DNA of 36,830 nucleotides. It comes from an uncultured bacterium (lineage in GTDB: Bacteria > Cyanobacteriota > Vampirovibrionia > Gastranaerophilales > Gastranaerophilaceae). The DNA lies in contig CACWHC010000016.1 in assembly GCA_902760645.1 (NCBI GenBank), positions 1-36,830 of the forward strand. The letters are read 5' to 3'. This document shows, piece after piece, positions 7,744 through 36,830 of the stretch; within the stretch, counting starts at the first letter, position 1; every line of letters starts with the position of its first letter. The notes under the pieces are model-generated. The model made no database searches and was not told the DNA's origin. It saw only the letters and a program-made list of their open reading frames with translations. A program made the position numbers and the translations under genes.

Positions 7744-8004
7744 GCCACCAATATTTCCGCAAGACTTCACTGTTTTTCCGCATTTTTATCTCAGCCACCA
7801 ATATTTCCGCTTTTTTCACTTCGCTACCACATTTTCCGCTTTTTTCACTTCGCCACCAGAATTTCCGCACTTTTATCTTCGCCACCAGTTTTTCCGCTTT
7901 TTTCACTTAGCCACCAGTTTTTCCACAAGACTTCACACTTTACACACATTATAAAAAACAATCCGGTAGGCTAGCCTACTTTTCTTCGCCACCAGTATTT
8001 CCGC
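7744..8004. repeat. 29-bp minisatellite
   Basis: The 17-mer core gccaccaNNNTTTCCGC starts at 7794, 7823, 7852, 7881 and 7910, exactly 29 bp apart (one copy has gctacca, the last ends ttccac). Outlying copies start at 7744 and 7988, and a decayed copy is visible near 7765. The units are head-to-tail with no unique spacers. Open frames across it are only by-products of the repeat. Confidence 0.9.
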
Positions 8005-36221: not shown

Positions 36222-36279
<58 letters not shown>

Positions 36280-36295
<16 letters not shown>

Positions 36296-36830
36296 AATAA
36301 AGCGGGATAGGGTATAATCCTATCTCGCTTTATTATGTCAGGAAGTATGAGAAGCTCTAATTTGGAGTTCGGCGGATTTGCGGACGGACGGAGTGAAACG
36401 AGTCCGGATAGCGAGGAAATTGAGCAACCTGCAACGAAGTTGCAAAAGCGAAACTTTCCGAGCGTGGAGCAAATCCAAGACGAATCTCTTCGGGCAAGGC
36501 GTAAGCCTTGTCAGGAGTTCGAGAGGATTTTTTGCAGAGGGCGAAGCCTTGACCGTAAGATATGAAATATCGTTACGGGCAAGCGTAGACCCGTTTAACG
36601 CAAAAAATCCGATACAATCTCTTCGGGCGTAAATAAAGCGGGATAGGGTATAATCCTATCTCGCTTTATTATGCCAGGAAGTATGAGAAGCTCTAATTTG
36701 GAGTTCGGCGGATTTGCGGACGGACGGAGTTAAACGAGTCCGGATAGCGAGGAAATTGAGCAACCTGCAACGAAGTTGCAAAAGCGAAACTTTCCGAGCG
36801 TGGAGCAAATCCAAGACGAATCTCTTCGGG
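36280..36830 (+). repeat. 336-bp tandem repeat built on the tRNA-Arg 3' end
   Basis: Copy 1 is 36280-36615. Copy 2 starts at 36616 and is cut by the window end after 215 bp. The offset is exactly 336, with only a few differences (tatgtc/tatgcc, gagtgaaac/gagttaaac). Each copy opens with aatctcttcgggcg, the 3' part of the tRNA, and the hairpin. The same tRNA fragment recurs inside the unit at 36481. Other stems in the unit are TGCAAC-GAA-GTTGCA, CAAGGC/GCCTTG, and CCGTAAGATAT-GAA-ATATC with TTACGG. The short open frames here are not supported as genes. Confidence 0.92.
36296..36334 (+). terminator. 16-bp hairpin after tRNA-Arg
   Basis: AATAAAGCGGGATAGG pairs with CCTATCTCGCTTTATT (one G-T pair) around a 7-nt loop. 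An exact second copy lies at 36632-36670 in the tandem repeat. It lacks a clear T-run after the stem, so it may stop transcription weakly or act as a processing signal. Confidence 0.6.

Follow-up and report, generated by a model that had tools for sequence, protein, structure and literature searches.

Why a long, nearly exact direct repeat should begin inside a tRNA gene and run up to the end of a contig is the question raised by this locus. The window, i.e., the whole stretch of DNA analyzed, corresponds to contig C16 in full (36830 bp), from a Gastranaerophilales genome assembled in 29 contigs (G000; 1.96 Mb, 99.8% completeness), whose relatives bear the names Candidatus Gastranaerophilales and Melainabacteria. 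Positions 36280-36494 and 36616-36830 form a direct repeat with a spacing of 336 bp and 99% identity over an overlap of 215 bp, which bears out the near-exact duplication of 336-bp period proposed in an earlier sequence-only reading of this DNA. The copies differ at two positions (36338 T/36674 C and 36395 G/36731 T), indicating that the second is not a mere echo of the assembly, a concern raised by the same reading. As had also been claimed, the repeat opens with the 3′ part of the tRNA; it starts at base 58 of tRNA-Arg, in the T-loop, between CG and AATCTCTTCGGGCGTA. Because the window and the contig end together, the array is cut off by the assembly, and its own end lies beyond the contig. 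In a near relative (L081), whose Rex protein is 96% identical, the bases past the tRNA-Arg array match the start of another contig, C20, with 98.4% identity over 886 bp. Since these post-array bases match it, contig C20 is likely the continuation of the array. The features of the array are given below; P1, P2, and P3 denote the stems of the folded element.

36222..36295, + strand: tRNA-Arg(acg), the anchoring gene, with no encoded CCA (ARAGORN; Rfam RF00005, 65.9 bits)
36280..36295, + strand: tRNA tail from A58 to N73, first copy, within the functional tRNA (repeat comparison)
36296..36334, + strand: long A/T-ended terminator-like hairpin adjoining the proximal tail, 16-bp, 94% complementary (inverted repeat; set against empty sites)
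36342..36371, + strand: element 1 (type A), P1 5′ strand, then P2, GAGAAGCTC / GGAGTTCG (sequence; anchor motif GAGAA; P1 pairing test)
36372..36481, + strand: element 1, P3 hairpin of type A, with CAAGAC at its end (sequence, folding, relatives)
36481..36495, + strand: internal copy of the tRNA tail, CGAATCTCTTCGGGC (tail-copy search)
36496..36521, + strand: element 2, inner hairpin of P2 (AAGGCGTAAGCCTT) plus GGAGTTCG (sequence, folding)
36525..36615, + strand: element 2, P3 hairpin of type B (GGATTTTTTGC...GCAAAAAATCC) plus GATAC junction (covariance model R1)
36616..36631, + strand: third tail copy, opening the second 336-bp unit (direct repeat, tail-copy search)
36616..36830, + strand: second unit, first 215 bp, cut at the contig end (direct repeat)

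Two stacked elements, which differ in their P3 hairpins (type A and type B), make up the 336-bp unit, and the order from tRNA-Arg is tail, long terminator-like hairpin, type A element, internal tail copy, type B element, and tail copy. The unit folded better than 100/100 shuffles (z -6.1). The 16-bp hairpin, the internal tRNA fragment, and the GAA triloops in the stems, all described earlier from the letters, are present. Covariance model R1 matched 36518-36619 with an E value of 8e-21, this sequence itself being in the building set of the model. P1 pairing at this tRNA-Arg was weak, with 4/9 pairs. An element with a tRNA-Arg(tct)-like tail was seen within the tRNA-Arg(acg) array both at C20:1-420 (L426) and in L081, as if moved from another tRNA locus.

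The repeat is one member of a family: small folded DNA elements of this kind stand behind tRNA genes of many specificities in one group of gut bacteria. Their layout is a tRNA tail (A58 to 73/76), a terminator hairpin, the P1 strand, P2, P3, CAAGAC, and a second tail copy; the minimal unit is ~190 bp, holds no genes, and is apparently non-coding. For 15 of the 40 tRNAs detected by ARAGORN in G000, the 3′ end is copied within 700 bp downstream, while shuffled tails gave 0 matches, and the tmRNA likewise has several tail copies. In our judgement, elements stand behind about 18 of ~44 tRNA/tmRNA genes in G000, a total that adds the tmRNA and weaker or more distant cases and is not the count of one tool. 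When G000 and its relatives were taken together, 64/193 distinct tRNA loci had a tail copy, in a set that is enriched for matches. The copies are 16-19 nt long, and leftward identity stops at A58 in 51 of the 64 loci and within at most two extra bases in 64/64. CAAGAC directly precedes the tail copy in 40/64 loci, and an exact copy of at least 11 nt was present at 36/49 loci of the relatives.

A covariance model of type B gave 20 matches in G000, of which 15 lie within 1.2 kb downstream of a tRNA or tmRNA on the same strand (P about 2e-23). That the unit might be equally frequent away from tRNA genes is thus refuted for type B. As for the remaining five matches, a tRNA-Gly-like sequence absent from the tRNA list precedes one, a tRNA-Leu(gag) tail closes another, and a third, located on C20, has a tail resembling that of tRNA-Arg; the last two stand at the end of a gene that appears to encode elongation factor G. 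At this gene end (L428, C1:146602-146807), two element-like hairpins have a direct repeat of their own. The model matched 12/12 genomes of the genus and 114/292 of the phylum, the 114 all belonging to one family. Together, tail copies and covariance-model matches support the proposal that tRNA-end-anchored structured elements have been amplified in this genome. Type A hairpins (L010, L013, L015) were found also away from tRNA genes, inside other palindromic repeats. In an Rfam search of the window and 10 loci, tRNA and tmRNA were the only real matches, and a literature search, thin on subscription journals, found no paper on such repeats in Gastranaerophilales or tying RtT to other tRNAs.

The structure of the elements was then compared across loci. 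The frame before the tail consists of the reverse complement of the first bases of the tail, GAYGAGAAC, a hairpin, GGTTCGAGCG, the P3 hairpin, and CAAGAC, and according to folding models each element can form a three-way junction of P1 (element strand plus tail copy), P2, and P3. P1 matched the tRNA tail of its own locus in 172/297 pairs, compared with 124.0 (sd 6.3) after permutation and a top of 145 in 5000 permutations; the pairing was clearest at position 59 (0.85 versus 0.43). Among the 27 pairs of P3, 19 were doubly compensated, i.e., changed on both sides, and comparison of the sequences indicates that P3 is conserved as a structure. Its internal loops are nearly invariant across the genus.

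Several features of these hairpins bear on whether DNA or RNA is the folded molecule. G-T pairs made up 1.0% of P3 pairs, whereas stems of the tRNAs from these genomes had 7.9% (P 5e-8), the counts using alignment-predicted pairs, which are biased towards good pairs. The hairpin loops of the elements are mostly triloops, and 34/65 of these are GNA versus 1/64 in control hairpins from the rest of the window; since the elements share ancestry, loop and pair counts are not independent. GNA loops form exceptionally stable DNA mini-hairpins (PMC4686876). In DNA folding, P1-P2-P3 was obtained for 2/3 of the Gastranaerophilales elements tested and for E. coli tyrT, and the tRNA-sense strand was always the more stable; the tRNA-Gln element folded no better than a tenth of its shuffles. 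The compensation in P3, the scarcity of G-T pairs, and the GNA triloops suggest that the elements may fold as single-stranded DNA. The main alternative for these palindrome features is templated correction of palindromes: replication errors that correct palindromes, or conversion between arms, could make G-T pairs rare instead of selection on a DNA fold.

The nearest likeness was found in the 178-bp repeats of E. coli tyrT/tyrV (RtT RNA, Rfam RF00391, RttR), in which the tail copy spans exactly A58-A76 (19 nt, at +160, +338, and +516) and so has the same A58 boundary. Both systems have the reverse complement of the tail, GAYGAGAA, GGTTCGA (GTTCG), hairpins, GNA triloops, and a tandem array, and the structure given for RtT by Rfam itself has P1 formed with the tail. 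However, RtT is tied to a single tRNA (Tyr), whereas the present elements occur at many tRNAs and the tmRNA with at least three P3 types. The RF00391 covariance model had no match at E <= 1 in the whole of G000, with a positive E. coli control, and none in the window or the 10 loci; conversely, model R1 (type B) did not find E. coli RtT, the P3 sequence being unrelated by model. The elements are RtT-like in architecture and new in sequence, target range, and abundance, and they are not RtT by model.

Filled and empty sites were compared among species. A given isoacceptor may have an element in one species and lack it in the next, and a single tRNA site may hold P3 of type A, B, or D depending on the species. 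At tRNA-Ala, the distal flank and terminator of the filled locus resemble the empty site of a relative. At tRNA-Asp and tRNA-Lys, the CCA encoded in empty relatives sits distally, and the proximal tail has no CCA. These three comparisons of sequence suggest that the present tail and terminator of the tRNA may have come with the element, the original 3′ end being the distal one. Across loci, CCA was distal only in 4 and proximal only in 2, indicating that new and old tails do not always stand in the same order. Proximal and distal terminators differ at several loci, and several loci repeat tail, terminator, and spacer jointly over 50-200 bp.

We were also interested in candidate enzymes. A general domain search of G000 found two intact Phage_integrase-domain proteins of Xer size (frames of 304 and 328 aa) and one fragment, none within the arrays studied. 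No intact dedicated integrase was found in this nearly complete genome, and none inside the direct repeats of the minimal units. At the tRNA-Ile island (C14:87382-89745, L077), a 110-125-aa piece of an integrase and a Fic protein lie beside a ~40-nt tRNA copy that starts at the anticodon loop, and the adjoining type A element has its own A58 copy; the two kinds of duplication thus differ. The first 27 nt of this tRNA are also copied 141 bp upstream. Duplication of an integration site by a mobile element, which the sequence-only reading had kept as an alternative while seeing no integrase, becomes less likely: G000 has no more than two intact recombinases of Xer size and a 125-aa fragment of an integrase, and the tRNA-Ile copy beside the fragment starts elsewhere than A58. 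The Y1 transposase (PF01797) was absent from G000 and found in 4/12 genus genomes, and no reverse transcriptase was found in G000 or G007, both of which are element-rich. A RAYT or a reverse transcriptase was rejected as the engine in G000, both genes being absent. Among viral contigs, two (L343 and L344) had the type B pattern. L343 was rejected as a carrier, as it is GC-rich and its match looks like chance. L344 is a prophage contig with endolysin, tail chaperone, and reverse transcriptase, and it holds an element with a tRNA-Val tail at about 1524-1584. The P2 pattern occurred in 75 viral contigs, one of which has a tRNA gene, and the E. coli P2 pattern in none.

The reading that we prefer, with a probability of roughly 0.45, is that the repeat is built from folded-DNA cassettes inserted at tRNA T-loops, the recombinase being hypothetical. 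The element would act and move as a folded single strand of DNA, namely the tRNA-sense strand, roughly in the manner of integron cassettes with their attC hairpins. Its insertion at the T-loop of a tRNA gene would be carried out by a recombinase of the host or of a helper, which would recognize the conserved T-arm together with the folded hairpin. P1 would have to match the tail of the target, so that P1 would track each tRNA. Further insertions, or unequal exchange between the tails, would extend the arrays and give the 336-bp tandem unit. However, a circle formed from the minimal unit (~190 bp) would be very small, no enzyme could be linked to the elements in G000, and the tandem cases that copy tail and terminator together fit simple duplication.

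Tyrosine-integrase attachment sites in tRNA genes (T-loop or 3′ sublocation) share with the elements the target position, the direct repeats, and perhaps the restored 3′ end. The elements might be remnants of such sites: phages or islands would have integrated at the 3′ ends of tRNAs, supplied a tail of their own to restore the gene, and later shrunk to their attachment arms, the hairpins being arm sites of the integrase. That the element seems to bring a new 3′ end and terminator agrees with this, as do the tRNA-Val tail on the prophage contig and the cargo that arrays can hold (a 201-aa ORF at tRNA-His, and the tRNA-Val region). We nevertheless consider it rather unlikely: the units are very small, a single element family, with an unchanging P2/P3 frame, is found at more than 20 different tRNAs and at the tmRNA, G000 lacks an intact dedicated integrase, and the tRNA-Ile copy beside the integrase fragment is the longer one from the anticodon loop. 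Less likely still is a unit acting at the RNA level like E. coli RtT, in which read-through of the tRNA operon would give a structured RNA with a tRNA-like tail for processing or regulation, the tail being kept for processing. The shared frame of the tyrT repeats and the near-invariance of the P3 internal loops over the genus speak for it, but at most loci a terminator-like hairpin separates tRNA from element, there are hardly any G-T pairs, GNA triloops are favored by DNA, and presence between species is patchy.

The joint repeats of tail, terminator, and spacer would also be expected from passive tandem duplication, in which hairpin-driven replication slippage copies the tail and its flank without movement between loci, and such slippage may account for the doubling of the 336-bp unit. 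As an account of the whole family this is improbable, because homologous P2/P3 occurs at dozens of unrelated tRNA loci and the proximal and distal terminators differ at several. Retroviral primer-site synthesis stops at methylated A58. The A58 boundary and the length of 16-19 nt would therefore fit an origin by reverse transcription, with a retroelement copying the tRNA 3′ end up to A58; this origin is most improbable, as two element-rich genomes have no reverse transcriptase and the copy is often without the CCA of the mature tRNA.

Recombination of folded strands is established for integrons and for some filamentous phages. If the elements are folded-DNA cassettes, they would form an attC-like system with tRNA genes as its targets. 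Integron attC sites and cassette arrays, as generally understood, resemble them in the folded hairpin, conserved unpaired features, variable stems, tandem arrays with a common boundary site, and an occasional cargo gene. The elements differ in that the target is the tRNA T-loop and in that attC R boxes, by their general consensus, were not seen in them. REP/BIME palindromes with RAYT transposases are likewise short structured intergenic repeats; unlike them, the present elements occur in a genome without a Y1 transposase, and type B is strictly anchored to tRNA tails. A broader proposal is that mobile folded-DNA cassettes form a general class, whose members invade T-loops, rebuild the tRNA 3′ end at each invasion, and carry a stem matched to the tRNA in which they sit; the class would be present at many Gastranaerophilales tRNA genes and, independently or by descent, at E. 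coli tyrT. We regard this as possible but doubtful. The 178-bp repeats of E. coli tyrT look like an oddity of a single locus; a clade in which dozens of tRNA genes share this frame, with stems matched to the target and sites filled in some species and empty in others, allows their origin to be approached by comparative tests. The frequent termination of contigs at tRNA genes in these genomes could also be explained by such arrays.

At the other end of the window, the tRNA-Leu(gag) locus (189-584) has 5′-end copies upstream, in a 102-bp array built on a hairpin of type CCTCTC...GGCAGAGT. This locus had been called a mirror of the tRNA-Arg repeat, a description that holds loosely: the 5′ end is indeed copied there, but the hairpin is of another, shorter type and the copies have other boundaries. 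CCTCTC...GGCAGAGT-like hairpins also abut tRNA pieces at the Met, Glu, Phe, Thr, and tmRNA loci. Elsewhere in the window, at 7774-7924, a 29/58-bp tandem repeat separates two long open reading frames.
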